From contig OY997589.1 in the NCBI GenBank assembly GCA_963921825.1, forward strand, positions 74,756,523 to 74,820,522: DNA of 64,000 nucleotides, in the 5' to 3' direction. This DNA comes from Erodium maritimum. Lineage: Eukaryota; Streptophyta; Magnoliopsida; Geraniales; Geraniaceae. A program made the translations under genes and the position numbers. The number at the start of each line of letters is the position of its first letter. Position 1 is the stretch's first letter. Of this stretch, positions 9,021 to 57,355 are shown piece by piece. The notes beneath the pieces were generated by a model. It had not been told where the DNA came from, ran no database searches, and saw only the letters and a program-made list of their open reading frames with translations.

Positions 9021-9317
9021 GCAGGAACTTTGTGAATACGAGAAGGGATTGTACAAACTAGTGTACGAACTTAATGTGATTCTTTCACTTGGGGGTGTGA
9101 GTACTGACATTGAGAAGATCTGAACATGAAAAGGCTATGGAGTTGAAGGTGACATGGATAGGTGGTAGTAGTAGTAGTAGTTCGGAACATCCTTAGTCTT
9201 GTGTATTGAAACCTAGGAAACTAATATGATATTGTGATTTGTTGTTTCGTGGGTATGATCGTGTTCCAGTTTGGTGGTGATTATAGGTGAGGGTGTTGTA
9301 CTGATTGGTGAGCTCAA

Positions 9318-9323
9318 AATAAA
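9318..9323 (+). terminator. Candidate MAP65 poly(A) signal AATAAA
   Basis: First canonical AATAAA after the MAP65 stop codon, about 420 bp downstream, preceded by GT-rich sequence. Plant poly(A) signals are loose, so cleavage may lie elsewhere. Confidence 0.45.
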
Positions 9324-9469
9324 TGTAAGTGCCAAAGTTTCTCTTCTTATGTATGCTTCATGTGTATAGAATTTAGAGCTTATTCTGATATGTTCATGTC
9401 AATTTACAGCACAGACTGAACTCAGCCTTGTCATGTTTTTGACATTGTAGCTCAAAAATTGTGAAGATA

Positions 9470-9829
9470 TTAAGGTTATCCACAATGGCGTCGAAACGAG
9501 GTATAATTGTACCGTCGAATCGCACGGTGCGCAGGTTTCTGACGTCAAATCGAGTCAGCGTTGTTTATTTATTGTCGAATCTTCGAAATCTCCGAATCGA
9601 CGTCGAGGGATTTGAAGATTGAGGGCCTGTCGAATCGACGGATACGGGCCTTGTGAATAAACTGACAACGCGTGGCAATGATTTAAATGTTTAAATTAAC
9701 TTCGGCTCTTAAATATCCAACTCCCGAAGCTTCTTCTTCACGAATCCTCTACAACTTCACCACCGTTTGGGTTCTGTAGTGCTCCCTAGTACCATCCGAT
9801 TCAGGCAACTTGTTGTCATCTTCTCGGAG
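9470..9829. other. Left part of a Harbinger-type remnant, cut by an LTR insertion
   Basis: The sequence from about 9480 (ATCCACAATGGCGTCGAAACG) to the target duplication CGGAG at 9825-9829 has no ORF. It joins without a gap, across the solo LTR, to 16350 onward, where ORF1-like Harbinger debris is found. Assignment rests on that continuity. Confidence 0.35.
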
Positions 9830-10103
9830 TGTAAGAACCGCCCCCGGTCGATCCCGGTCGAACCGGTGAAGTCTGACGAAAGTTGACTTTCCACCGGAAA
9901 AGTCAACCGATGACTCCGGGAGTCATTCAGGACCTTTCCGGGACCCAAAAAGCTTAGCCGTCGTTACGGTTAGCTTAGTTGGGTCGTTTCCTTCTAAACA
10001 TGTAATTTGCGAAAAAGTCAAACTGGGGTTAAACTAGGCCTAATTAAGGACTAAACCAAATTAAATTATTTGAGCTGGATTTATTTTGGGGTAAAGGTGG
10101 ACA

Positions 10104-11132
10104 TAGGGGGTGTTCAAAAATCACCGGAACCGATTAAACCAACCGAAACCAACCAGAACCGGCACCGAAAAAATCGAAACCAGAAAAAACCGACGAAGAA
10201 CCGATTGGTAAATTTCCAAACCGCCCTTGTCTCGGTTGGACACTGGTTTTTTTTTCTGAAACCAGCGGTTAACCGCTTAGAACCAGACCGGACGTTGAGC
10301 TTCAAATCTGACAAAGCCGTTTTCTCTTTTTTGTTTGAGCCCAATTATTTTTTCAACATCAACCTATTTACTTTTTCAGCTCCAGCCCATTTCACTTAAG
10401 TACAACTAAATGATACAACCCAACTTATTTTAACCCAAATGTTTCCATATAAATACCAACACAACACTACACCCTTTTTCATCATCATGTTGTCGCCTCT
10501 CTCTCTCCTCATCGTCTCTAAGTCTACGCAACTATCATTTTAGTTCCATGTTTTGAATATTTCATCTCTATTCTCTTTGGCGTCTCTATTATTAAGATTT
10601 TATCTTTTTATTTTATAAAAACTTTTAAATTCCAGTATTTTATTTTGTAATTTTTTAAATCAGATCCATGTTAAAAGTTAAGAGTTCTTTTTCTCATCAG
10701 ATTCATATATGACTCATATCGAGATCCCGTTGACGAGGGTATTTGAATTTCTCAGTTTTAAAAGCGGGAAAGGGATGGAGGAAAGAATACTCAGTGCCAA
10801 CTACTATCCTCTTTATAGTCTCTGGGTTTCAATTGGTGTTCAAAGAATTCCGAAGCATTTTGAGTGTGTCGGAGAATTTGGTGAATCATGAGCAGATGAA
10901 AACGAGGAACAAGTGGGCCCTGATTTGAAAATGTTGGGCCCAATTAGTAGGCCCAATCAATTGGTTGGTCCGGTTTCAAACCGGTAACCAACTGAAATTT
11001 ATTACGGTAAAAACCAACCGGAGTAGCATTTTCCGGTTGCAGTTGCGGTTCTCAAAATTCACACCGGTGAAGTTTCTGGTTGGTTCATAAATTCTGTATA
11101 ATGATTGGTTAAACCAACCATGTACACCTCTA
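10104..11132. mobile_element. Non-autonomous hAT-like element
   Basis: Ends read TAGGGGGTGTTCA and the complement of TGTACACCTCTA, i.e. TAGRGGTGT-type hAT termini. The flanks carry an 8-bp duplication with one mismatch, GGTGGACA (10096-10103) and GGTGGACC (11133-11140). Subterminal regions are packed with AACCGG/AACCAACC words on the left and their complements on the right, usual for hAT transposase binding. No transposase is encoded. Inserted in gypsy LTR copy B. Confidence 0.8.
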
Positions 11133-11753
11133 GGTGGACCCCACATGAACATGTGTCCATGGTATCTTGGAGGGGAAGAAATAAGGGAGAAAGGACCAAA
11201 TAACCCCATTTTTGGACCATAAGAGACAAGGGAAAAGAGGGGGACAAATGGGTCATTACCAAATTAGTTTTTAGAGCCACAAAGAGCATTTTTCAGCTCA
11301 TTTCTCCTTGTTGGCCGAATTCCATAGAGAGAAGAGAGAAGTTGGAGAACTCCATTGCTTGAAGAAGAAGAAAGGGAGCTCCTTTAGTGGATTTTCACCT
11401 CCAACCTTCTCCAAACCTACTCCATCTTCTTCCTTTCCTAAAGGTTAGTACCCATTAAAACCTCCCTTGTTGAAGTTGTGTTGTGGGTTTGGGTAGGAAT
11501 TGCATGAACTAGTCTTAGATTCTAGGGATTTGAGGATTTGATGTTTAAAACTTGATTTATGAAGAGAAATTGAAGATTTATGATTGAAATCAAGAGAGTT
11601 TGTGTTGTTTTGATGAAACCCACTATGGGTCTTTGAGTATTGAGGGTTTTGAGACTGCTTTTGGAGGTTTTGGGGGTCAAAAATGGAGTTTAGAAGTTCT
11701 GGTTTCGTGGAGAAGAAGCTGGAGGAAGAAGATGGACGAATCTGTCCGGACCC

Positions 11754-11920
11754 GTCACAGATCCGTGACGGGGACCGTGACGGAAGACGTCACGGCTCCG
11801 TGACGGAGGCCGTGACGGCACACGTCACGGTTCCGTGACGTCACCCATGACGGGGAACTTCACGGTTCCGTGACCCGAACCGTCACAGAGTCCGTCAAGG
11901 CTCCGTGACCCGAACCGTGG
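11754..11920. repeat. 35-bp-period palindromic array in LTR copy B
   Basis: About five units, each with a 16-bp palindrome of the form GTCACGGNNCCGTGAC followed by about 19 bp. Variants seen are GTCACAGATCCGTGAC, GTCACGGCTCCGTGAC and GTCACGGTTCCGTGAC. TGACG cores of bZIP (TGA-type) sites recur throughout. The equivalent array of LTR copy A is at 42389-42522. Confidence 0.9.
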
Positions 11921-22785: not shown

Positions 22786-25700
22786 TCAATAAATGGAGGG
22801 CATTGCCATTCCGGCAATCTTGCAACATACCTCAAGCTTCTCCTGCGGTAGTGCCTTAGTGCACATATCGGATCCATTCTCATTCGTGTGAACTTTCTCA
22901 AACTCAAACAACTTCTCCTCAAGAGCATCTCTAAGCCAATGATACCTCACATCAATATGCTTCGACTTTGCATGAAATGTCGAATTCTTGCTCAAGTGGA
23001 TTGCACTTTGGTTATCACAATAGACCACATACCGCTTCTGCTTGAGACCAAGCTCTTGTATGAATCTCTTCATCCACAACAACTCTTTACATGCTTCAGT
23101 TGTTGCAATATACTCAGCTTCTGTAGTAGAAAGTGCGACACACTTTTGAAGCCTTGATTGCCATGAAACTGCTCCACCTGCAAATATCATCAAGTAACCG
23201 GAGGTGGACTTTTTGCTATCAACATCTCCTGCCATGTCTGAATCTGAGTACCCAACTAACATAGGTTCTCCACTTCCGAAAGTAAGTCTAAAACTAGAAG
23301 TACCTCGGAGATATCTCATAATCCATTTGACTGCATCCCAATGCACTTTACCTGGATTAGACAGAAAGCGGCTAACAACTCCAACTGCATGAGCAATGTC
23401 GGGTCTATTACATACCATAGCATACATCAAGCTTCCTACTGCCGAGGCATATGGAACTCTCTCCATGTCTTCCATCTCCTTCTCTGTAGAAGGGCTCTCC
23501 TTTGTGCTTAGCTTAAAGTGAGTAGCAAGAGGAGAGCTAACCACTTAAGCCTTGTCCATGTTGAACCTTTGCAACACCTTCTCAATATACTGCTCTTGTG
23601 ACATATACACCTTCTTCGCGCCTCGATCGCGAGAAATTCTGATACCAAGAATATTCTTCACAGGACCCAAGTCCTTCATAGCAAAAACCTGACACAGATG
23701 CTGCTTTAACCTGTCAACTCTAGAAATATTATTCCCAACAATCAGCATGTCATCAACATATAGCAATAATATGATAAAATCATCATCAGAGAATCGCTTC
23801 ACAAACACACAGTGGTCACACTTAGTTTTCTGGTAGCCTTGCTCCCCCATAACTGATTTACACTTCTTGTACCACTGCCTTGGTGCCTGCTTAAAACCAT
23901 AAAAACTTTTCTGTAGCTTGCACACATACTCCTCTTTTCCTTTACTGCGAAACCCTCTGGCTGCTCCATATAAATCTCCTTGTCTAAGTCACCATGGAGA
24001 AATGCAGTCTTCACATCCATCTGCTCAATCTCCAAATCAAGACTAGTTGCTAAACCCAGAACAACACGAATAGATGACATCTTAACAACCGGAGAAAATA
24101 TTTCATCAACATCAATACCTTTCCTCTGGCTAAACCCCTTGACCACCAATCTAGCTTTGTATCTTGGGCGTGAGGAATTCTCTTCCTGCTTTACTCTGTA
24201 CACCCACTTGTTCTTCAAAGCTCTCTTACCTTTCGGCAACTTAACCAACTCAAAAGTATGGTTATCATGCAATGACTTCATCTCATCTTGCATGGCCTCA
24301 ACCCACTCCTCTTTTTTCTCATCTTCAATGGCTTCTTCATAACTTTGAGGCTCTCCCCCGTCAGTTAGTAACACATACTCATCAACAGAATACCTTGAAG
24401 AAGGATGACGATCTCTATTAGATCTCCTGATTGGAACAACTGGTGGATCAACAGGTACTGGCAACTGCTCATGGATTTCATCATCCATCTCAACCTCTGT
24501 TGGAATGTCAACATTGCCTGTATCTTGTTGGTCATCCTGAACTTCATCTTCAACTTGACTTTGTAAACCTGCAGAAGGAACTATATCAAAGTCAATCAAG
24601 TCATCACTATATGGAGGAAGATCTACAACTTTCTCCATATCTTTAATGTTCTGATCTTCCATAAAAACCACATCGCGGCTTCTAACTAGCTTCTTCTGTA
24701 CATGATCATAAAACCTGTATCCAAACTCATCCAAGCCATAACCGATGAATATACACTGTCTTGTCTTCACATTAAGCTTAGACCTTTCATCCTTTGGTAC
24801 GTGCACAAATGCCTTGCACCCAAAAACTCTCAAATGATCATAGGAGACTTCTTTACCTGTCCAAACTCTATTTGGAACATCAAACCCAATAGGAACACTA
24901 GGTGTGAGATTTAACACATGTACCACTATACTCAAAGCTTCACCCCAAAAGGATCTCGGTAGTCTTTCTTGTGAAAGCAAACATCTCACTCTCTCAACAA
25001 GTGTCCTATTCATCCTCTCAGCTAATCCATTCAACTGAGGTGTTTTGGAGGTGTCTTTTGGTGTCGAATACCTTGATCCCTGCAATACTCATCAAAAGGA
25101 CCACAATACTCACCTCCATTATCTGTCCTGATGCACTTCAACTTCTTCCCAGTCTGTCTCTCAACTAGGGCATGAAACTGCTTGAAAACTCCAAGCACTT
25201 GATCTTTCGTCTTCAAGGTGTAAGCCCACAACTTCCTTGAATGATCATCAATAAAAGTCACAAAATAAAGTGCACCGCCCAATGTCCTTTTCGTCATAGG
25301 ACCACACACATCAAAATACACCAAATCAAGTATTTTTGGCTTTCTAGAAGAAGGAGATGATTTAAAAGAAATTCTTGTTTTCTTACCGGCCAAGCAATGT
25401 TCACACTTCTTCAATGGTGTGCAACTCATCCCCGGTAGAAGATTCTTCTTGCTCAACATCATCAATCCTTTCTCACTTATGTGACTAAGTCGAATGTGCC
25501 ACAATTCTGTTGTACCTTCACCTTCAACTGCATTAACAATGCCATTGTAAACTCTAGCTCGAGTAACGTACAACGAAGCACACTTGCTCCCTCTAGCAAC
25601 AACCATAGAACCTTTGGTGAACTTCCACTTGCCATCACCAAAGTGATGATGAAAACCTTCATCATCGAGCCTTCCTACAGATATCAAGTTCAAGCGAATG

Positions 25701-26768
25701 TCAGGAATATGCTTAACATTTTAAGAACCAAGAGTGTACCATTTTCCGTCTCCAAGCTCACATCTCGAACGCCAATAGCCTTTGACGTGTCTCTGTTTCC
25801 CATCTTAACACTCCCATAGTGACCAGATGTATAAGATGAAAAGAAATCCCTCCTCGATGTAGCATGTATACTGGCACCGCTATCTGCTATCCAACTGGTC
25901 TCTTGAGAAGCCAAATTGACAGTTTCTTCATCATCACATAGAACAAGGAACTCCTCTGTAATAACAACAACATTATCATCATCACCACCGCTATTGTGCT
26001 CCTTTCCCTTTCCTTTGTCATATTTGGTGTCTCTTTTAAATTTCCGGCAATGCTTCTTCATATGCCCCTTTTGACCACAATGATAGCACTCACCATCAGC
26101 AAACCGGTTCTTACTTTACTTCTGCCTCTGCCTTTCGGATCTCTGCTCTTACTCCTCCCTCTTTGTGTAGTAACCAAGACCTCCGTGTGTGAAGAGGAAC
26201 CCTGTGACTTTCTTCTCGTCTCTTCATTTAGAAAACACCCCTTAGCCATATCCATGCTAATAACACCATCTGGAGCCGAGTTAGACAATGACGTTCTAAA
26301 CGTCTCCCAAGAGTCCGGCAAAGTACCCAGAAGCCACAAACCTTGAACCTCATCTTCAAACTTGATACCCATTCCTGCAAGTTGATTAATAATACCCTGA
26401 AAAGCATTCAAATGATCTGTCATAGGACTCCCAACCTGATACTTCAAACTCATCATCTGCTTAATAAGAAACAACTTGTTATTCCCTGTCTTTCGAGCAT
26501 ACAACTGCTCAAGCTTGCTCCATAAAATGTGTGCATCTGTCTCTCCACTATCATGATTCAAAACATTATCATCAACCCATTGCCTGATGTAACCACACAA
26601 TTGGCGATGAAATAATTTCCAAGCACCATCAGTTTTACCCTCAGGCATTCTCTCACTGAATATCGGCAGATAATAATCCTTCACATAAAGAAGATCCTCC
26701 ATCTTGCCCCTCCAAACATGATAATTAGAACCATTCAGATTAACCATTCTACTTGTATTAGCTTCCAT
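22786..26768 (-). pseudogene. Ty1/copia Gag-Pol polyprotein (Tork/Tnt1-like), frameshifted
   Basis: Domains in order on the - strand: gag (from 26768, [17 protein letters not shown]), zinc knuckle (CYHCGQKGHMKKHC, near 26090-26050), protease (IADSGASIHA), integrase with the zinc-binding H/C region, both aspartates (YFDVCGPM, RTDNGGEY) and the glutamate (NGLAERMNRT), reverse transcriptase (MDVKTAFLHGDL, LLYVDDMLIVG), RNase H (LSTTEAEY, YCDNQSAIHL). Catalytic motifs are intact, but frames change near 26115, 25700, 25050 and 23920, and a stop lies at about 23545. The copy is therefore dead, although its parts are fairly well preserved. Lineage is judged from motif style only. Confidence 0.9.
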
Positions 26769-30603: not shown

Positions 30604-32704
30604 GAGCATGAACAACAGAAAGGACCTTGGTCAGGGAGTGGGAGTGCAGAACTTGTGCTGACTGGACAAAAGTCAGGGAGTGGGAGTGCAGAAAAGTGGG
30701 TGTTTTGCAACAGAAAGGACCTTGAGGTCCTGGGAGTGCAGAACAGTGCTGACTGGATTATTATTTGATATTTTCCTGTTTTATTTAATTCGTTATCAGA
30801 AACCGTTTAATTTAGTCATAATTTAAACAATTTTGGAAATAAATAATTAATGACAATCAAAAATTAATAAATTCAACACGAATATAAATTAACTTCAAAT
30901 GTTATTCAACCCCTTTTAATACAACCCAAAACAAACCAGCTCCAAGAGCACAAACGACTACTCGTCGTCATGGAAACCAGCTCCAAATCGATCCCATAAG
31001 TGCTCCATAAGATCTTGTTGTAGTTGATGGTGGATCTCAGGATTTAGGACACTTTGTTGAGCATCCACTCGTTGCTGGTATTCCAATGGCCCTCCGTGGT
31101 GCCATCGTTCCGGTGGTGTCCAATTCGGCATTTCTGGAGGTTGCGCCCACAACACCTCCTCCTCCCCATACTCGTACCGGTCGCGCTCATCCTCTACAAT
31201 CATGTTGTGTAGAATTATGCAAGTGTGCATGATATTAGCCAAAGTGTGTTTGCTCCAACTACGAGCGGGACGGGAAATGATGTGCCACCTTGCTTGAAGT
31301 ACTCCAAAAGCCCTTTCAATATCTTTCCGAGCACCTTCTTGCCATCTAGCAAACAACTTCTCTTTGGGCTCGTAGGGATGCCGAATAGTCTTCACGAACC
31401 GTGCCCATGCTGGGTAAATGTCGTCTACCAAGTAATAAGGTCGGTCGTACCGATGGCCGTTGATGTAGTACTCCACAGCTAGCTCACGGCCGTAGTAAGC
31501 GTCTTGGAATAAGTGGCTGTGGTTGAGGACGTTGATGTCGTTGTTCGATCCAGCCATCCCGAAAAATGCATGCCAAATCCATAAATCACGGGACGCTACA
31601 GCTTCAAGCATAATCGTCTTTTCCCCGTGGTGACCTCCCCGTCCATGGGCTCTCTGCTCTTCGGTTGGGCAGTTCTTCCACTTCCAATGCATACAGTCAA
31701 GACTCCCCGCCATTCCAGGAAACCCTCGGCTGTACCCTTCTCGGAGTAAGCGGTCCATGTCAGTCGGTGTGGGTGTACGCTCATACTCGGCTCCGAAGAC
31801 CTCAATGACGGCCTTGCAAAACTTACGTAAACATTCAAGTATGGTGCTTACCCCCATGCGCAGAGTTTCGTCCAGTGAATCGGCCGCGGACCCATACGCA
31901 AGCATCCGTATAGCGGCGGTGCACTTCTGTTCCGTTGATAACCCCGGCCGTGAGGCAGCGTCGAGCCTATGTTCGAAGTAGTCGTCGTGAGCCTTCATCG
32001 CGTTCATAATCCGTTGGAAAAGCGGTTTGCACATACGGAACCGACGCCTGAACATGTCAGGGCCGTATAGGGGTTGTTCGTCAAAATAGTTCGCCATCAA
32101 TTGGATGTGGGCTGCCGAACGACCTCTGTTAATCTCTCGGCGCATTGGTTCCCCACGGATGGCCCTCTAGACCCTTGGCATTACTGTCTGCATGTGCCTC
32201 TCCATCATCCGCCGGAATCGTCGCTCAACTGGCCGCATTTGGGCTGCCATCTACTCATATGTCGGCAGTTGGGCTGCCATCTCCGCATGCGTCGGCATCC
32301 GGGGAGCCAGCTCCTCGTACGTCATCTACTCAGCGTCAGACATAACCTCGTCGTCAGACATTTTCAACAATAGCGAGTAGGAAGTGAGAATGAAAGAGTA
32401 AGTAGAGAATGATTTGACAAAAATGAGGAATGAGGTTGGGTATTTATAGGGTTCATTTTATCTGATTTTTGAATTAAAAAAAAAGCCATTGGAGTTGACC
32501 GTTGCCAACGGTCGGGATACGTGGCGGCACCGGAGCCTGCCAGCGCAGGCCAGGGCGCGAGGGCGCGTCCACCGCCCTCGGCCAGCCAGAGGGGAGCGGG
32601 AGCGGGACCGCGATTTTTCGCGTCTGTAGCGGACCGGCCAGCGGCCGGCGTTCCCGGCGCGCGCGGAGCGGGGAGCGGGAGCGACCCGTTGTCCCTGCTC
32701 TGAC
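30604..32704 (-). mobile_element. PIF/Harbinger DNA transposon
   Basis: The transposase gene lies inside. Candidate termini are GAGCATGAACAAC at 30604 (after TAA 30601-30603) and, on the right, the complement of GTTGTCCCTGCTCTGAC, i.e. GTCAGAGCAGGGACAAC, before TAA at 32705-32707. Harbinger elements duplicate TTA/TAA. The termini match imperfectly, so the exact ends are uncertain. Only the transposase is present; the DNA-binding ORF1 that most plant members carry is missing, although ORF1 debris of the superfamily lies at 16.3-17.7 and 20.4-21.5 kb. The right 250 bp is very G+C-rich. A local duplication (GTCAGGGAGTGGGAGTGCAG) lies near the left end. Confidence 0.65.
30958..32145 (-). CDS. PIF/Harbinger transposase (Plant_tran type)
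   Basis: This open frame of 395 codons has the DDE triad in place: D150 (AGSLDCMHWKWKNCP), D203 (GMAGSNNDINVL) and E277 (KDIERAFGVLQARW), plus LVDDIYPAW and HTCIILHNMIVEDE, all standard for plant Harbinger transposases. It would cut and paste elements with matching termini in the nucleus, normally helped by ORF1. The same frame is open further upstream except for three TAG codons (32328-32326, 32253-32251, 32169-32167) after an ATG at 32361; translation of that 72-codon extension looks family-like (TYEELAPRMPTHAEM), so the true N-terminus is probably lost. The start at 32145 is the first ATG after the last TAG. Confidence 0.88.
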   Translation of the reverse strand: MRREINRGRSAAHIQLMANYFDEQPLYGPDMFRRRFRMCKPLFQRIMNAMKAHDDYFEHRLDAASRPGLSTEQKCTAAIRMLAYGSAADSLDETLRMGVSTILECLRKFCKAVIEVFGAEYERTPTPTDMDRLLREGYSRGFPGMAGSLDCMHWKWKNCPTEEQRAHGRGGHHGEKTIMLEAVASRDLWIWHAFFGMAGSNNDINVLNHSHLFQDAYYGRELAVEYYINGHRYDRPYYLVDDIYPAWARFVKTIRHPYEPKEKLFARWQEGARKDIERAFGVLQARWHIISRPARSWSKHTLANIMHTCIILHNMIVEDERDRYEYGEEEVLWAQPPEMPNWTPPERWHHGGPLEYQQRVDAQQSVLNPEIHHQLQQDLMEHLWDRFGAGFHDDE

Positions 32705-33684: not shown

Positions 33685-36600
33685 ATGACGCTGTGGAAGA
33701 GGGCTGCCGGAGCCCTCAAAGACAAGAACAGCCTCCTGCTCGCCTCCCTCAACCCCTCCTGGCCCGGCGGAGCCACCGAAAATTCCGCCACGGAGAAGCT
33801 CCGCAGTCCGGAACTCCGAACCCTGGTCATCAAGGCCACCAGCCACGACAGAGACTCGATCGACTACAAGAGCTCCCACCGAATCCTCTCCTGCGTCCGC
33901 TCTTCTCCGCCCACCATCGAGGCCGTGCTGCTCGCCCTCGCCGCCCGCATGGGCAAGACCCGCTCCTGGCCCGTCGCTCTCAAAGGCCTCCTCCTCCTCC
34001 ACCGCGTCTTCTGCTCCTGCGACCTCCCCGTCGTCCGCCGCATCGGCCGCATCCCCTTCGACCTCTCCGATTTCCGCTCCTCCGACAGGAAATCGCCCGC
34101 CTTCGACGCTTTCGTCCGCTCCTACTTCGCCTTCCTCGACACCCGCTCCGCCCTTGTCTCGCAGCTCCACAACCCCAAGCGTCACGGCGAGACCCAATCA
34201 ATTGAGCGCGAGCTCGCCAATTTGGAAAAGTTCCAGAACCTTCTACACTATCTCCTCCAGATCAAACCCCAGGACAGTGGGATGCGCGTCTGCCTCATCT
34301 TCGAGGCCATGGACTGCGTCGTCCTCGAGGTCTTCGAGATCCATAGCCGGATCTGCAGCGGTGTCGCCGATGTACTCCACCGCGTCCACGCCGCCGGGGA
34401 ATCGGAGGCGGCGCTGGCTCTCAAAGTCATCCAGACGGCCACGAAGCAGGACGATGACCTCTCTGACTATTTCCAGAACTGCCACCGTTTTGGCTTCCTG
34501 AGAGGGCATGAGTTACCAAAGATGGAGAAGATACCCGTTGAAAAAATCAGGGAGATAGAGCGCATCGTTAGCGACCGCATAATCCCGGCAAAGGAAGAGG
34601 ATGGCGAGAAAGAGACAGTGGTAGTTGCTGACAAACATGATGAGGATCGGCCGGAGACGATCATAACGGATAAATGGGAGGTGTTTGATGATGACATGGC
34701 AATTCAACCATATCGTAGTGATGAAGTGACGATGGAACCATACCAAAACGATGATGTAGCAGTCAAACCATACCAAAGTGATCAAGTGGCGAGTGAATCA
34801 TACAAAAACGACGATGTAACTGCCAGACCGTGCCGATATGATGAAGTGGCGATCGAACCATACATAAACAACGGTGTAGCGGTCAAACCATACCGATATG
34901 TTGAAGTAGCGAACGAAACATACATAAAAGATGATGTAGCGGTCAAACCCTACATATATGATGAAGTAGCAACCGAACAATACAGAAAAGATGTAGCGGT
35001 CCGACCATACCAACATAATGAAGAAGCGATCGAACCATACAGAAACGACGATGCAGCAGTCAGACCATACAAATATGATGAAGTGGCGGTCAAAACATAC
35101 ATAAACGATGATGTAGCAGTCAAATCCAATCAACATGATGAACTGGAAACCGAACCATGCAGAATCGAAGATGTAGCGGTCCAACCATACCGAAATTATG
35201 AAGTGGCAATCGGACCATACAAAAACAAAGATGTAGCGGTCAAACCATACAGATATGATGAAGGGGCGATTGAACCATGCAAAAACAATGGTGTAGCAGT
35301 CAAACCATACCAAAATGATATAGTGGCGACCAAACCATACAAAAACGACGAGGTAACAGTCAAACCATACCGAGATGATGAAGAGGCGATCGAACCATAT
35401 AGAAACGATGATGTAGTGGTCAAGCAGTACCGATATGATGAAGTGGCGATCGAAACATACAGAAACGAAGATATAGCGGTCAAACAGAACACATATGATG
35501 AAATGCCGAACAAACCATACAGTAACGACGATGTAGCAGTCAAACCATACCAAAATGATGAAATGGCGATCGAACCATACAAAAACGACGATTTAGTGAT
35601 CAAATCAAACCGATACGATGAAGCTCCAATCAAACCACATGGAAACGACGATGTAACGGTCAAATCATACCAAAATGATGAAGTGGCAATCGAACCATAC
35701 AAAGACAATGATAAAAAAATCAAAGCATACCAAAATGTTGAAGAAGGGGCGACTGAAGCACATAGAAATGACGAGGTGACTCTCAAACCATACCACCATG
35801 ATGAAGTTGTCAAACCATACAAACACGACGGTGTAACGGTCAAACCATTCCAAAATGATGAAGTGGTGGTCAAACCATACAAAAACGACGATGTAGTAGT
35901 CAAGCCGCACAAATATGATGAAGTGGCGACCGATTCATGCAGAAACGACGATATAACAGTCAAGCCATACAATAAAGATGAAGTGACTGTCGAACCATAC
36001 AAAAATGACGGTGTAGCAGTAAAACCACACCAGCAGCAAAAAGTGGTGACAGATACATACAAAAACGAAAAAAACGACGATGTAGCAGTAAAACCACACC
36101 AACAGCAAGACGTGGTGACAGAACCATACAAAAAAGACGATATCACAATCAAACCATACCAAAATGATGACGTGACTATTGAATCTTGCAGATACATAAA
36201 TCATGATGTAGCGGTCAAACCATGCCAAAAGGTTGATGCAGCGAGCAAGTCATGCGAAAATGAAGGTGACAAGGACAAAAATGATGATGTAGCGGTTAAA
36301 CCATACCAAACTACCGACGTAGCGATCGAACCGTTCAGAAACGACGACCTAGAGGTCAAACCATATGTAAACAACGACGTATCAACTACACCATTCATAA
36401 ACGACGATGCATCGAGCAAATACAACGGCATAGCGGTTGCATTGTACCAAAATGATGACAAAGAGACCGAATCACACAAAAACGACGATCTAGTGGTGAA
36501 ACCATGCCGAAACATTGAGGTACCCGTCGGGTCATGCCGAAACGACAACGTAGTGGCTGCACCAAACCAAAATCATGATAGAGCGAGTGAAGCACACAAA

Positions 36601-36870
36601 AATGACGGCTTAGGTGCTGCACCATACCACATTTTTCATAGAGCGATGGAACTACACAAAATCTATGGCACATTGGTCAAACCAAGCCGAAATGTTAAAG
36701 TAGCAGCCAAATCAGACGGTGAGGAGAAAGACAAGGTAGCAATCGGACCACATGGAAACAACAACGTACACAAGACGAATGTAGAGAAGGAAGAAATAGA
36801 GCCGCTTGAGGAAATAGAACCTCCTAGTGAAGATAGAGACATGGCAGAGTCGGACTGGATAATGTTTTAG
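33685..36870 (+). CDS. ANTH-domain (AP180/CALM-type) protein with giant 20-residue repeat tail
   Basis: Plant ANTH proteins bind phosphoinositides at the plasma membrane or trans-Golgi and recruit clathrin and cargo. Residues 1 to about 300 match the short plant ANTH clade: start MTLWKRAAGALKDKNSLL, the lipid-binding helix region K50-ATSHDR with K62 and H65 (lacking the canonical PKxKH form), and HRVFCS, SYFAFLD, ICSGVADVL and LPKMEKIPVEKI segments. Residues about 300-337 are acidic and end in KWEVFDDD, where relatives stop or have short tails. From residue 338 to about 1012 follows a tandem array of 20-codon units (NDDVAVKPY + QNDEVAIEPY pattern). The last 50 residues are acidic (EEIEPLEEIEPPSEDRD) and end DWIMF. 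No DPF, NPF or clathrin-box motif was seen. One exon, start context AAAATGACG, no frame breaks in 3.2 kb. Confidence 0.85.
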   Translation: MTLWKRAAGALKDKNSLLLASLNPSWPGGATENSATEKLRSPELRTLVIKATSHDRDSIDYKSSHRILSCVRSSPPTIEAVLLALAARMGKTRSWPVALKGLLLLHRVFCSCDLPVVRRIGRIPFDLSDFRSSDRKSPAFDAFVRSYFAFLDTRSALVSQLHNPKRHGETQSIERELANLEKFQNLLHYLLQIKPQDSGMRVCLIFEAMDCVVLEVFEIHSRICSGVADVLHRVHAAGESEAALALKVIQTATKQDDDLSDYFQNCHRFGFLRGHELPKMEKIPVEKIREIERIVSDRIIPAKEEDGEKETVVVADKHDEDRPETIITDKWEVFDDDMAIQPYRSDEVTMEPYQNDDVAVKPYQSDQVASESYKNDDVTARPCRYDEVAIEPYINNGVAVKPYRYVEVANETYIKDDVAVKPYIYDEVATEQYRKDVAVRPYQHNEEAIEPYRNDDAAVRPYKYDEVAVKTYINDDVAVKSNQHDELETEPCRIEDVAVQPYRNYEVAIGPYKNKDVAVKPYRYDEGAIEPCKNNGVAVKPYQNDIVATKPYKNDEVTVKPYRDDEEAIEPYRNDDVVVKQYRYDEVAIETYRNEDIAVKQNTYDEMPNKPYSNDDVAVKPYQNDEMAIEPYKNDDLVIKSNRYDEAPIKPHGNDDVTVKSYQNDEVAIEPYKDNDKKIKAYQNVEEGATEAHRNDEVTLKPYHHDEVVKPYKHDGVTVKPFQNDEVVVKPYKNDDVVVKPHKYDEVATDSCRNDDITVKPYNKDEVTVEPYKNDGVAVKPHQQQKVVTDTYKNEKNDDVAVKPHQQQDVVTEPYKKDDITIKPYQNDDVTIESCRYINHDVAVKPCQKVDAASKSCENEGDKDKNDDVAVKPYQTTDVAIEPFRNDDLEVKPYVNNDVSTTPFINDDASSKYNGIAVALYQNDDKETESHKNDDLVVKPCRNIEVPVGSCRNDNVVAAPNQNHDRASEAHKNDGLGAAPYHIFHRAMELHKIYGTLVKPSRNVKVAAKSDGEEKDKVAIGPHGNNNVHKTNVEKEEIEPLEEIEPPSEDRDMAESDWIMF
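34696..36720 (+). repeat. Coding tandem array, 60-bp (20-codon) period
   Basis: About 33 units of 60 bp, each made of two related 30-bp halves: half A (consensus AACGACGATGTAGCAGTCAA, then ACCATAC) encodes NDDVAVKPY-like residues; half B (AATGATGAAGTGGCGATCGA, then ACCATAC) encodes NDEVAIEPY-like residues. Units are diverged, and the indels I saw are whole codons (for example at 34990, 35745 and 35805; an additional partial unit at 36061). No stop codon occurs. The array also keeps long open frames on the antisense strand, a by-product of the repeat. Confidence 0.95.
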
Positions 36871-37287: not shown

Positions 37288-39484
37288 GAAACAATTCCGT
37301 ACTTTAATCAAAATCAGGTTGGTCGCAGCGCCTCCCTATTTCCCTCTGCTAGGGTTTACATTAGGGCTTGGTGTTTTGCGTTTTCTGCATCTGGCTTTCA
37401 TGGAGTTTTCGGGTATGGAGGGAGATGGAGAGCAAGCCGGCGATGGATACGTCCACTGGGGACCCTATTTGCCGGAGGAGAGTGCTGACGCCGTCGACTC
37501 AGACGCCGGCATGGATCGGTCGGACGTGGAGCCCGAGGAGGATCAAGAGAATGCTTCTGATCTGGAGCCACTGATGGCGGCGGCGACGGAGGGGATGGGC
37601 TTGCAGACGGCGTCGGGGCTGCAGGAGGAGCCCGTGCTCTCGGGGGAGCGGTGGACGCCAAGGTCAGGGACGCCGGTCGTCTGTTTCTCGGCCGGGGAGG
37701 AACCGGGATGGGTCCCGGGGGGAGGCTCCGCTCGGGGCCACCATGCCTCCGCCGCACGCCGGAGAGGGGGCCTCGGCCAAGGAAGAAGGTGGCAAGCCGG
37801 GTTGCTGTGGCCGGTGATTCGTTGCTGGCGCCGGTGGGGGAGAAGGCTATGCCGATCTCGATTTCTTCGGGATCGGCCAAGACGCCGGTAGACGTGCCGG
37901 AGGAGACACCGGCCGAGGTTGGTTGGCGCCGAAGTAAGGGGAAGGGCGTGGTAACTGAGGAGCCGGGTAGGGTTGAACGCCCGCCGGAGACGGGTCGTGG
38001 ATTCATGGGCGATGCCCGATGGGCGGCCACGTTGGGTCGTAAATCGGTATGGGCCCAGAGAGAAGGCGGCGATGTGGCCCGATGGGCCTAGAGGTTTGGG
38101 GCGGGTCGGACAGGTGAGGATGGTGGTTTGAGAGAGGGGGCCGGGGTCGGGCAGCACTATGGGGGTAACATTCGCCCGACCCAAACAGGAAAGTCCTATC
38201 CAACTCGGACGGGGGACCCATATACGGGGGGGAGTTGTCCTGTGGGGGGAGCAATGGGGCAACTGGACTCCCAAATGGGAGCTATGAGAATCAAGGAGGT
38301 GGTGGTGCCTGTCCAAGAGGTAACAGGACGGGGAAATACGTACCGTTTCGCTTTAGCAGCGAAGGTTCTGTCTACCAAGAAGGTATACTAGAAGTCGGTG
38401 GTGGCACGAATGGAGGACCTCTGGGGAATGAAAGTCGAGGCTAAACCCCTGGAGGGCGGTCTTGTGGCTTTCTTCTTCAGGTCTGCGAAGGAAAGAGAAC
38501 GGGTCCTGGTGGGTGAACCCTGGTCCTTTTGGGACTCTCTGGTATTGTTCACTGATCTACGGGCTCACATGCATGTATCGGAGCTGCAATTCCATCACTT
38601 CTCGGTGTGGGCGCGGGTTTCGAACTTGCCGGTGGGGGCGTGGATGAGGGATGTGGGCTTCAGGATTGGCAACACGCTGGGCGTTTGTCAAGGAGTAGAT
38701 GTAGACAAGAAGGGTCTCTGCTGGGGAGACTTTATGAAGGTCAGAATTCGGGCCGATATTCGGGTTCCACTACAAAGTCAACTCTGGTTCCGATTGTCGG
38801 TGTCTCAGGTTACTGGGAATCCAAGGACTCCTCCGAGGCGCGAGGTTATGGGGCGTTGGGGTCAACATGAGGTAGAGGGGGAGGAAGAGCCAGTAGGCTG
38901 CGTACCGCGAGACTCGACGCCGACACTGTCGGGGAACAAGAGGGCTGAGCGAGATGTGGACTCACCCGAGGATGAAGAATCAGCGGCGTCAAATGGGGCG
39001 TCTTCTACAGCGGCGGGGGGCTTCAAGCACCCTCGCCTCCAGGAATGAGTGCTGAGATGGCCAGGGAGAGGTTGGTCGAATGCACCTCCTCCCTGGTGTA
39101 TAGGTGGCAAGGGTACCACCAACAGTCGCTATGTTACTTTCCTACCACTTCGGAGTCAGCAATCCCGCGTTCAGGAGCCCTACCATTATCAGTCAAGGGA
39201 GGACGACGCACGCTGACTTACCGGGGGAGTAATAGGTCAACCACTGGTTGTTTATCCTCTGATCTGCTCGATCAGTATCTTATGGTTGTAGTATACTGTA
39301 TCGGTGTCCTTGGACGCTACCGCAGTCCCACCCCTCCGACCGCCCCGATGTCAAAGAGCAAAATTTACTTTCCTGCTTTTTTTGTTATTGTCATGTTAGT
39401 TTGGTTTTCATGTACGGTGCCTTGAGCTTCTGTAGGCAACAATATGCTTTTACATTAATAATGTTGTCGTTTCTCTCCAAAAAG
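37288..39484 (+). mobile_element. LINE-like element with ORF1 only
   Basis: It is flanked by a perfect 10-bp duplication AAGTAGATAT (37278-37287 and 39485-39494). The 3' end reads like a plant L1 tail (TAATAATGTTGTCGTTTCTC, then a short A-rich end). The interior carries a DUF4283-type ORF1 but no endonuclease or reverse transcriptase, so about 2.2 kb of ORF1 plus tail remains. Movement must have relied on another element's enzymes, or ORF2 was lost before insertion. Confidence 0.8.
37400..39048 (+). pseudogene. LINE ORF1 (DUF4283 domain), interrupted
   Basis: The clearest part is 38128-39048, a single frame except for one TAG at 38389-38391. It contains the DUF4283 pattern: AKPLEGGLVAFFFRSAKERE, VLVGEPWSFWDSLVLF, FSVWARVSNLPVGAWMRD, IGNTLGVC and VDKKGLCWGDFMKVRI. 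DUF4283 proteins are nucleic-acid-binding ORF1/Gag-like proteins of plant LINEs. The upstream frame 37286-37891 (acidic, GYVHWGPYLPEESAD) is probably the original N-terminal part, now out of frame. The zinc knuckle that usually follows is not evident; the C-terminus (about 38830-39048) is acidic and Ser-rich. Confidence 0.75.
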
Positions 39485-42388: not shown

Positions 42389-42522
42389 GTCACGGATCCG
42401 TGACGGGCACCGTGACGAGAGACGTCACGGCTCCGTGAGGGAGACTGTGACGGCACTCGTCACGGGTCCGTGACGTCATTCGTAACAGGGAGTCTCACGG
42501 CTCCATGACCCGATCCGTGGCA
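42389..42522. repeat. 35-bp-period palindromic array in LTR copy A
   Basis: About four units with GTCACGGATCCGTGAC (a perfect 16-bp palindrome), GTCACGGCTCCGTGAG, GTCACGGGTCCGTGAC and CTCACGGCTCCATGAC. It is homologous in sequence and position to 11754-11920 and at the same position as the different array in copy C. Confidence 0.9.
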
Positions 42523-49311: not shown

Positions 49312-52300
49312 TCAGTATTTATCTGATGAGGTGGATACGCCGCAGTACATGTTTGGATTTGTTATACGATCTAGGCTTTTAGCTTGCGCAATGGCCCTTG
49401 TGTTGTCGCAAGATGGATTCACCGGGCTGGATGGGTTTTTAATTACACCCAGCCCTGCCATGAATTTCCAAATCCACATAGCCTCCTTAGCTGCCTCTGC
49501 AGCATCCATGTACTTGGCCTCTGTCGTAGATTCGGCAATGGTATCTTGCTTTACGCTTTCCCAGCTAAAGCTCTGCCATTCAGCGTAAACACATATCCTG
49601 ATTGACTTCTAAAGTCATCTGGATTTGTCTTGGAAAACTAGCGTCTACTCTGATTCTTCGACGACTAGTTCAACATCATCTTTCCCCCGGGTTAGAATGA
49701 TGTCTACTGGTACAACATAAGGCTTACGAGACGTCTGGTCTCATACATGTCATGGCATATATGATCGATCCTGCCCCCAGGCGCATAGGATTCTCATCAT
49801 CCTTTTCAGCTCATCAGGTGTCTTAGGACACTGAGTCTTGCTGAGATGAATGCCATGACTAGTGGCTAAGAGTCCTTTCTTTGAATCGAGCATTAAGAAC
49901 CTACTCAATGCCTTGTTCACATAGGTTCCCTGACTTAAATCCAAGACCCTCTTGGTGCGATCTCTACATATCTTAATCCTTAAGATATGAGAAGCATCGC
50001 CTAAGTCCTTTATTGAAAAACACTTCCTCAACCAAGCTTTAGTCTCGTGCAAGGTTGGGATGTCGTTTTCAATGAGAACCAGAAAGGTAATATTGCTCCC
50101 ACTAGCCTTCTTATAAACGCAAGATTCATCCTCGTTCTTGATTAAGTCAAATCCAATTACAGCTTCTTCAAAACGAAGGATCCAACTCCGAAAAGTTCGT
50201 TTCAATCCATAAATGGATTTCAACAACTTATAAATCTTTCCTTTATTCTTCGGATCGTCAAAACCTTTAGGCCGAGACATACAAACGTACTCAGTCAAAT
50301 TTCCATTTAGGAAAGCGGTTTTGACATCCACTTGCCATATCTCGTAATTATGATACGCAGTTATGTCAAGAAGAATTTGGATCGATTTTGACCATAGCCA
50401 CTAAGGAGAAGGTTTCCTCATAGTCAATCCATTGGATCTGCCTATAACCTTTCGCCACCAGTTGAGCTTTGTAGGTCAGAGGGTTGCCGTCCATGTCCAT
50501 CTTCACCTTGAAGATCCATTTGCATCCTATGGTCCTCACACCATTGATGGGATCAACCGGTTCCCAAACTCGGTTGTCTGACATGGATTGCATTTCCTCC
50601 CTCATGGCTCCCAGCCATTACTCGGAGTTGGGCCCATCCACGACTTCCTGAAAGGTGGCTGGATCATCGTGATCCCCCATGACTTCATTGTCACCTCCGG
50701 ATACCATATCTTGGAGGTGGAAGATTGATCCTTTCAAATCGCCTTGGACCTTCCGGAATTGTAACAGGAATTGGTTCTTACTCTACGACAATCTCTGGCT
50801 CCTTTCTACTGGGTTGCCAATTGGTTTAGACAGATCTGTACCATCCTGAATTTCTTCGAGATGCACAGTCCTCCCAATGACGTCTTTGGAAACAAAACTT
50901 CTTTTCCATAAAGACCCCACCCCAAGCGACGAACACCATGTTCTCACTGGGATTGTAGAAATAGTATCCCCTTGTTGCTTTGGGATACCACACGAAGGTG
51001 CATATCTCAGATCTTGGTTCGAGCTTAGTCGAAACCAAATGTTTCACATAAGCCTCGCAACCACAAATCTTTAGGAAGGACAAAGCGGGCATCATCCCGT
51101 ACCATTTTTAAAATGGTGTCCCTTCCACACCATTCGTCGAAGCCCGATTCACTATGAATGCGGTCGTCTCTAGAGCAAAACCCCTAAAAGAGATTGGGAG
51201 ATCAGTCCAACTAATCATGGAACAGACCATTGTCTAACAATGTCCGATTTCTCCGTTTGGCTACACCTTTCAACTACAGTGACCTAGGAGGAGTCCATTC
51301 CAAAAGGATCTCATTCTCTTTTAGATGATCTAATAACTCTGTGGTCAAGTATTTTCCACCTCGATCCAATCGAAGTGCCTTAATACCTTTGTCGAGCTGG
51401 TTTTCTACTATAGTCTTAAACTCTTTGAATTTATCAAAAGCTTCAGACTTATGTCTCACCGAAGAGACATAACCATATTTACTGTAATCATCAGTAAATG
51501 TGATAAAGTAGTTAAAACCCCTCCTGGCAAGTGAACTTATTGGTCTACACACATTCGAGTGTATCAGCCCCAATAATTCACCCGCCCTTTCATCGCGATC
51601 GATAAAGGGCACTTTAGTCATTTTGCCCATCAAACAAACCTTGCACCTATCGATCGAATGGAATTCGAATGAACCTGAAAGCCCGCACTTCTGAAGTGCT
51701 GATAGGCGTTTCTTGTTTATGCGACCCAAATGACAGTACCATAACAGAGTTAGGTTTAAATCGTTGGATTTAGACCTCTTGGTATTAACGGAATATATAG
51801 AACTTGAGGCATTGTTACCCATATCTAATATGTACAATCCTCCAACCATGTCAGTACTGGTATAAAACATATCATTGCATAGAACATTGAAAACTCCATT
51901 TCCAATATTAACATTATATCCTTCCTTGTCAAACACGGATACAGATATAATATTCCTACTAAAAGTAGGTATGCAATATACATTATACAATACTAAGACA
52001 AGGCCTCTTGGCAAAGCAAGACTCATGGATCCTACAGCAGTTGCCACAACTCTGAGGTCCATTTCGTGCTTTCCAAATCTCTCCTACTTTCAGCCACCAT
52101 ATATTAGTGCATGTGTGAGATTCAGTCATGGTATCTAATACCCAAGAATCTTTGGAAGTAGAGAGATGTAGCTCTATAGAGTTAATACCGAATGAAGGCA
52201 CGATCCCACCGCCCTTCCTTAGATCATCCAGGTTTCCTGATGAAGGCGCAGTCCTACTGCCCTTCTTCAGATCATCCAGGCTATTTGATGAAGGCGCAGT

Positions 52301-55937: not shown

Positions 55938-55942
55938 GTGAG

Positions 55943-57355
55943 GCCGAGTCAGGCTGACAACTACACGACACAGGCTCTTAGATATTTCCGCAGGCTGGGC
56001 ACACCAGTCTTCTTCGGGGAGTCAGACCCCGAGGCAGTTGAGAGATGGCTGGAGCGGATCACCCGAAACTTAGATACATCGAGAGTATCGGATGGTCACC
56101 TAAGGGTATCTTTTGCGACATTTCAGCTAGAGGGGGAGGCGTACCACTGGTGCCAGCATGTGCAGACCAGGGTTGGAGATGACTTCCAAATGTTTGGCGA
56201 ACTGTTCCTGGAGCAGTACTTCCCTAGATCAGTCCGAGATGACCGACTCCAGCAGTTCCTGGAGCTGCGACAGCGAGGGATGTCTGTATCGGAGTATGAG
56301 GCGAGGTTAACATCCTTGTCTCGTTTCGCACCAGAGATGGTACAGACCGAGGAGAGCCGCTGCAGGCGATTTGAGAGAGGACTCATCCCGTCTATCGCGG
56401 ATCGAGTCATTACCTTCAGGATGGAGGAGTACTCTATACTAGTGGACCAGGCACTAGCAGTAGAGAGGCACTTTCGAGAGACCGTTAGGGCGTGGGAGAT
56501 CAGGCCGAGGCCGAGTGGCTTCCTGAGGCCGTCCGAGGGACGGGATCCGAGGAGGCAGAGGACCTCAGGATCTTTTCAGCCACAGCTCCTGTCTGGTGGT
56601 ATGCGCCGAGTCGGAGCAGTATCGTCAGTTGGACCTACCCCGGTAGCGCAATTGTGCCCCTTGTGCAGGCAGCTGGGCCACCTAGCCCGAGACTGCCCGT
56701 GGAGAAGCGGACCTACAGATTGTCAGAATGATTGTCCGCCGAGGTTCGTGGAGAGACCGCGTGCTGATGAGAAGACGTGCTACCAGTGCGACCGACAGGG
56801 ACACCTCTCCTTCGCGTGTCCTGACCGAGTTGGAGGAGCGCCAGCGCCGAGACTTCAGCAGGCGCAGCCTCGCCAGGCACCATATGTCCGCCCGCGTTAG
56901 ACCCAGACTCCGAGAGCCCCACGCCAGGCGGCGATCGCACCAGCTCAGAGACATCAGCAGAGGGTCCCACAACAGATGATCCTTCCACCACCCCTGAGAG
57001 GAGGACCTCAGGCTCAGCAGGGTCGGGTGTATGCCGTCACTGGCTCGCGAGCAGAGGGACGCCACTCCGGTCATGAGACCACTCAGGGTACGTGCTTGCT
57101 TTATAATTCCTGGGCGTCTTTCTTATTTGATACTAGGGATTCACATTCTTTCATCTCTTCTACTTTTGCTGATCTATTGGGGTTGAGGGTAGAGACGTTG
57201 AGTCAACCTTTATGTCTTGATACCCCGGTTACGGGAGATGTGGTCCTGAGTACTGTATGTCGTAGCTGTGAGATTCGAGTGGCTGATTGCCCTTTTTATG
57301 GTGACTTGCTTGTGTTGGACATGGCTGCTTTTGACGTGATCTTGGGGATGGACTG
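55943..57355 (+). pseudogene. Gypsy gag C-terminal piece and protease start, cut by an LTR
   Basis: It continues the gag of 47163-47482 in phase. The retrotransposon gag domain is clear (FFGESDPEAVERWLERI, ATFQLEGEAYHWCQ, LFLEQYFPRSVRDD), followed by two CCHC knuckles, CPLCRQLGHLARDC and CYQCDRQGHLSFAC. A TAG at 56898-56900 interrupts, then the same frame continues through RVYAVTGS into a protease-like domain whose active site reads FDTRDSHSFIS instead of D(S/T)GA-SHSFIS, and into AAFDVILGMD, where the - strand LTR at 57356 cuts it. Reverse transcriptase, RNase H and integrase are not in the window. Confidence 0.88.

Follow-up and report, generated by a model that had tools for sequence, protein, structure and literature searches.

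Animal AP180, also known as SNAP91, joins an ANTH domain to a long disordered tail built of repeats. According to PMC5694535, 12 repeats make up the C-terminal region of AP180, each about 23 aa long and bearing one DLL or DLF motif, and the disordered tails of AP180 (569 aa) and epsin are reported to bend membranes via steric pressure (PMC4515776). In NPF-rich plant ANTH proteins, an N-terminal ANTH domain precedes a C-terminal region that bears interaction motifs; in rice these motifs are NPF and DLL, and the genes have 14–15 exons, while introns are few or absent in the rice ANTH group without NPF (PMC8076639). Long plant ANTH proteins do exist: OsANTH15, the largest in rice, reaches 863 aa (PMC8076639). 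In Arabidopsis, At1g25240 has been grouped with PICALM9-10 (PMC3473312); PICALM9A/B are found mostly at the plasma membrane and on nearby vesicles, and both split-ubiquitin yeast two-hybrid and BiFC assays showed them to interact with AP1G2 (PMC9301471). The motif WxxF is described as an AP-2 alpha-ear motif that is C-terminal in NECAP 1, for which the binding has been demonstrated (PMC3794858).

The gene reported here lies in a 64-kb stretch of Erodium maritimum DNA (the window), and its product can be set beside each of these systems. It shares with the At1g25240-type plant ANTH proteins, its nearest relatives, the ANTH domain (37–46% identity in the 120 matches listed of the 135 from an ANTH-led search), an ITDKWEVFD-type motif behind that domain and a D[LW]IxF-type end, but it continues for 727 residues after the WxxF where these relatives continue for 16–96 (n = 119 among the matches listed). 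With animal AP180 it has in common an ANTH domain followed by a long, probably disordered tail built of repeats, but the repeat unit is a different one, and the DLL/DLF motifs or clathrin boxes that an AP180-type tail carries within its repeats were not found by pattern scan (0 DLL, 0 clathrin boxes), DLF likewise being absent from the translated protein. The NPF-rich plant proteins show the same order of ANTH domain and C-terminal region; unlike the rice members, the window gene encodes neither NPF nor DLL, and one exon is enough for it. The window protein also shares a C-terminal WxxF with NECAP 1, but it lacks the PHear domain, and its WxxF is recognised by sequence alone. The gene represents a genuine expansion of the tail within an adaptor family already known; its origin can be traced, and no relatives of the tail were found among the candidates scored in the searches made. 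Its tail was apparently built independently of that of AP180, within a short-tailed plant subfamily.

The reading frame and its family

The window gene is a single ATG-to-stop frame of 1061 codons plus the stop that requires no intron (Table 1). The initial annotation had proposed that one uninterrupted frame joins an ANTH domain to a 20-residue tandem array and a short acidic C-terminus, and this description was borne out by the domain search, by a TRF period of 60 and by the length of the frame; the ANTH profile PF07651 scored 162.3 bits against a gathering cut-off of 21.5. An AF2 model of the protein, made from an alignment of 22 sequences, has ten-residue block means of 67–97 across residues 41–300, and Foldseek searches with this model returned AP180 and CALM ANTH structures as the best matches (TM-score by target 0.82 for 1hx8_B and 0.84 for 3zyk_B, top PDB matches), consistent with a predicted ANTH helical fold. 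A search of solved structures by sequence with the window protein gave nothing at E 0.01. Over residues 304–1061 of the model, pLDDT is below 50 at every residue except one.

Table 1. Features of the ANTH gene in window coordinates
Feature	Position	Strand	Evidence
Whole ORF	33685..36870	+	own-genome match at 100% (contig C2)
ANTH domain, residues 44-296	33814..34572	+	PF07651, E 1.5e-47
Post-ANTH motif ETIITDKWEVFDDD, residues 324-337, WxxF then acids	34654..34695	+	WxxF in 119/120 relatives listed
Tandem array, residues 336-1035, 35 units of 20 residues (~70 decamers)	34690..36789	+	TRF and wrap-around alignment
Acidic end segment, residues 1036-1055	36790..36849	+	ORF translation, wrap-around alignment
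C-terminal SDWIMF, proposed counterpart of the family PDLI[ST]F	36850..36867	+	relatives' ends, L002 alignment

The lipid-binding signature of ANTH domains is worded as KAT(X)5/6P(X)3[KR][HY] in PMC8076639. Set against this PIP2-site signature, the window ANTH domain has KAT at 50–52, K62 and H65 and lacks the proline, which occurs at that position in 0 of the 22 aligned rows. In a protein tree of 32 rows, consisting of the window ANTH domain and 31 of the 120 relatives listed, the window protein falls without resolution inside a group of 25 rows, and its end branch measures 1.48 against a median of 0.44.

Of the 120 matches listed, 22 carry the label At1g25240, the sole Arabidopsis locus to be named among them; the remainder have general names or none. 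A WxxF occurs past residue 250 in all of the listed relatives but one, the exception (P0045) being only 318 residues long, and a median of 49 residues follows it (119 relatives among the matches listed), in agreement with the initial annotation's statement that plant ANTH proteins of the short type normally end soon past the domain. "Short tail" is used here as a description of the relatives found and has no published definition; the window protein, with its WEVF so far from its end, falls outside it. A pattern [PNS][DN][LFWI][IL]x[FLVSW] lies at most 3 residues from the end in 105 of the 120 relatives listed, and the tails after WxxF contain NPF in 52/119 and DPF/DPW in 10/119. The absence of DPF and NPF from the window tail had been remarked upon from the start, and the pattern scan agreed, with 0 matches in the window protein for NPF, DPF/DPW, DLL and the clathrin box. 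A pair of WxxF motifs, WEVF331 on one side of the tail and WIMF1058 on the other, had been overlooked: WEVFDDD directly precedes the array, and SDWIMF closes the protein, with W in place of the family L. On the basis of its closest relatives, its WxxF and its C-terminal DLIxF-type end, we class the protein as a PICALM9/10-like (At1g25240-type) member. We would like to note that one Hibiscus syriacus protein (P0002), named 65-kDa microtubule-associated protein 6, carries both PF07651 and PF03999 and perhaps represents two genes merged by annotation.

Layout and origin of the repeat array

TRF called the array at 34719–36174 (period 60, 24.2 copies, 72% matches), with overlapping rows of period 30, and wrap-around alignment placed the number of units slightly above the "about 33 copies" first given, the 20-residue tandem unit itself being upheld. 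Within the array's first 1.5 kb, DNA self-identity is 0.69 at lag 60, the highest of the lags tried, and 0.59 at lag 30. The consensus of the 20-residue unit is DDVAVKPYQNDEVAIEPYKN, made of two decamer halves; the decamer is the basic unit of the array, and the residue before Pro alternates between K and E from one half to the other, being K or R in 27/35 first halves and, in second halves, D or E in 22/35 and K or R in 9/35. With a net charge per residue of -0.07 and a mean hydropathy H of 0.384, below the boundary of 0.437 on the disorder side of the charge-hydropathy plot, we infer that the array is a disordered, weakly acidic polyampholyte. AF2 block means of 28–40 over the array, with no secondary structure, are weak evidence on this point because no relatives align to the tail. 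Weak Pfam matches within the array (Crb2 Tudor and two others) fell below the cut-off and were discarded.

The initial annotation had proposed a new kind of tail, and the protein searches gave no relative that has it, the tail-only search giving nothing up to E 10 among 7997 candidates scored; in all of the database searches the candidates were the best sharers of 5-letter words within length limits. The full-length search gave 1 match, covering 32% of the query, and no relative with such a tail, and in the ANTH-led search (450 residues) the alignments of the 120 matches listed cover at most 84% of the query and none has the tail. Comparing the tail to 121 fetched proteins with phmmer produced no match. 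Elsewhere in the window, the best blastn match to the array had E 0.39, and one tblastn match had E 8.7. Among the open-licence PMC papers listed on ANTH tandem repeats, plant PICALM/ANTH proteins, WxxF or disordered tails, and intragenic repeats with endocytosis, no title or start of an abstract reports such a tail, which is weak evidence that none has been described.

A search of the genome with the window gene, in which all 26 candidates were scored, gave 13 matches. Besides the window gene these comprise three close paralogs, one short fragment at 74% and eight ANTH matches that are weaker. The closest paralogs lie on other contigs, with most of the ANTH part covered, at 63% (L002), 56% (L003) and 48% (L004) identity, or 57%, 52% and 45% in separate alignments. 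A tail-only tblastn search found no array match in L002–L009. L002 and L004 have ORFs with normal ends and no array; in L003 (1146–2364) the WEVF/PDLITF tail is out of frame with the ANTH part, and this gene perhaps contains a single intron, a difference from the window gene, L002 and L004. On another contig, L009 (G000:C4, 2702–2828) is a 127-bp ANTH-gene fragment with 86% DNA identity, and no array match was found there.

The tail of L002, WEVFDDDIATMEPGTTTGNESYMAEGDQLINF, has 28 residues after WEVF and a related C-terminus: its end, ...SYMAEGDQLINF, aligned to the end of the window protein, ...RDMAESDWIMF, with a score that only 4 of 5000 shuffles reached (last 14 against last 13 residues). 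For the same last 13 residues of the window protein, 214/5000 shuffles did as well with the end of L004 and 123/5000 with that of L003. The initial annotation had taken the ANTH domain to be fused to its tail. Instead, the repeats grew inside the gene, between two of its own conserved tail motifs, since these motifs flank the array and the form seen in the paralogs is unexpanded; on the same grounds, a foreign tail joined by fusion was rejected.

The L004 protein runs WEVFEDTAIVPFEHDDMDKE..., with one decamer of the array pattern, EDTAIVPFEHDDM, directly after WEVF and in the same register. Its in-register match to three versions of the unit was equalled by 0, 1 and 3 of 10000 shuffles, and, with the leading acids removed, by 4, 1 and 4 of 20000, against 17059 for the reversed control; an unanchored alignment was equalled by 253/5000. 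L002 gave no clear in-register match (217 to 1020 of 10000 shuffles; 9080 to 11545 of 20000 minus the leading acids), L003 has no in-register decamer in the test minus the leading acids, and unanchored alignments were equalled by 781/5000 shuffles for L002 and 4622/5000 for L003. Comparing L002 to the start of the array gave 364/5000 for protein and 46/3000 for DNA. In relatives at large, the ungapped best match to the unit averaged 18.50 against 18.68 in shuffles, and an anchored test flagged 36/119 relatives against 40/119 with a reversed-unit control, which also flags many relatives probably because their tails begin with acids. Among the relatives and paralogs examined, only L004 stands out in these seed tests, and its single decamer is likely the seed of the array. 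By this account the ancestor would have carried a single copy of the decamer; amplification would have followed in the window gene, and loss or erosion in L002. The gene illustrates unusually clearly how a tail of this kind can arise: one paralog still shows a single copy of the likely seed decamer, and the old tail survives at its two ends.

Constraint on the array and its possible role

Over the 700 codons of the array there are 0 stops in the coding frame, and the other frames hold 51 and 74 (forward) and 14, 9 and 34 (reverse). Neutral simulations produced a mean of 15.3 stops on a star tree (0/2000 runs stop-free), 25.3 on the full unit tree (0/1000), 16.9 on a half-length tree near the observed divergence (0/1000) and 11.6 on a 0.3-length tree below the observed divergence (4/1000). 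Silent divergence between units (pS 0.46 for all pairs, 0.38 for neighbours) is about that between the window gene and L002 over their 318 shared codons (pS 0.42, dN/dS 0.39), so the array does not look like a very recent burst; its frame, open despite this divergence, seems to have been kept for a long time. Within the array, dN/dS is 0.63 for all pairs, 0.72 for neighbours and 0.62 against the consensus (bootstrap 0.52–0.74), and the ratio of nonsynonymous to synonymous change does not lie clearly below that of a neutral null matched for spectrum, 240/2000 runs being at or below the observed ratio. Residue choice within the units is nearly free of constraint, which fits a role of bulk and length better than a specific multivalent motif. 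Selection appears to keep the open frame, composition and length and not the exact residues.

Our preferred reading, held tentatively with a probability of about 0.45, is that a PICALM9/10-like adaptor expanded a decamer behind WEVF and that the array may act as a disordered spacer or crowder between the end motifs. The decamer right behind WEVF would have expanded to about 70 copies, while the motifs WEVF and SDWIMF and the ANTH domain are still recognisable. The ANTH domain would dock onto the membrane, and WEVFDDD and the terminal DWIMF would, by analogy, be short hydrophobic-acidic motifs of the type that binds AP-complex ear domains. The 700-residue array would be an entropic spacer and crowder between both, long enough for the terminal motif to extend across the coat, and it may exert a lateral steric pressure on the membrane like that of the disordered AP180 tail in animals. 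With the 0.38 nm per residue used for disordered tails in PMC4515776, the contour of 727 residues is about 276 nm, against 216 nm for the AP180 tail. The long ANTH branch, which also fits relaxed constraint, and the partial PIP2-site signature both count against this reading. We are doubtful of the further proposal that this is a convergent AP180-like protein made by decamer amplification, in which an array with no binding motif in its repeats works via size and reach alone and copy number tunes coat geometry or the reach between the two end motifs.

A bulk-and-length role predicts weak residue constraint, and neutral tolerance predicts the same. A serious rival, though we consider it unlikely, is that the array is a tolerated coding minisatellite that expanded by unequal exchange in a redundant paralog and that the tail is useless, with selection acting only against frameshifts and stops, which would cost the protein its C-terminal motif or its stability. 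The array dN/dS of 0.6–0.7, inseparable from the neutral spectrum, the persistence of three sister genes without an array and the long ANTH branch would all be expected under such tolerance; it accords less well with a 700-residue tail that is stop-free at paralog-like silent divergence, and the dN/dS of 0.39 between the window gene and L002 indicates that the gene overall is constrained. Bulk and many binding motifs usually occur together in the long disordered tails of endocytic adaptors, which makes their effects hard to tell apart; a natural pair of genes with and without the array, both end motifs being recognisable, could separate them.

The initial annotation proposed a multivalent scaffold or condensate role for the array, which is possible as a prediction. 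In its sticker-and-spacer form, Tyr at near-regular 10-residue steps would make the tail condense at endocytic sites, either by itself or together with TPLATE/AtEH condensates, and this we regard as improbable. The array does have 53 Tyr in 700 residues, 10 being the commonest spacing (18/52 intervals), with 33% charged residues and a disorder-type composition, and plant AtEH1/2 condensates are reported to recruit accessory proteins (PMC7615741). However, Tyr occupies its two consensus positions in only 19/35 and 23/35 units, Arg is scarce (25 against 68 Lys), there is no NPF as a tie to EH domains, and we infer that the K/E alternation would favour solubility. It is very improbable that no long protein exists, the array being spliced out, untranslated or misassembled: GC3 does drop from 0.69–0.86 in the ANTH part to 0.33–0.49 in the tail, but one frame is stop-free where the other five have stops, this frame continues into the family C-terminal motif, neighbouring units match at only about 72%, which makes a duplication artefact unlikely, and the contig that carries the gene is 87 Mb long.

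Sequences around the gene

An open transposase ORF (Plant_tran PF04827, E 3.5e-92; DDE_Tnp_4), which we take to be of the PIF/Harbinger type, lies at 30958–32145 on the minus strand, some 1.5 kb upstream of the ANTH gene, and a DUF4283 ORF (38398–39048, plus strand) lies about 1.5 kb downstream of it. ORF pieces of a Copia-type retrotransposon, comprising gag, SH3-like and reverse transcriptase, lie at 23799–26768 (minus strand), and separate Copia-type pieces with gag-pre-integrase and integrase core lie at 51274–52062 (minus strand). A Ty3-type gag with a zinc knuckle is present at 55938–56900 (plus strand). Two short arrays of a 35-bp unit, at 11753–11919 and 42389–42475, have in common a CCGTGACGG / GTCACGG core and are dissimilar to the ANTH array.
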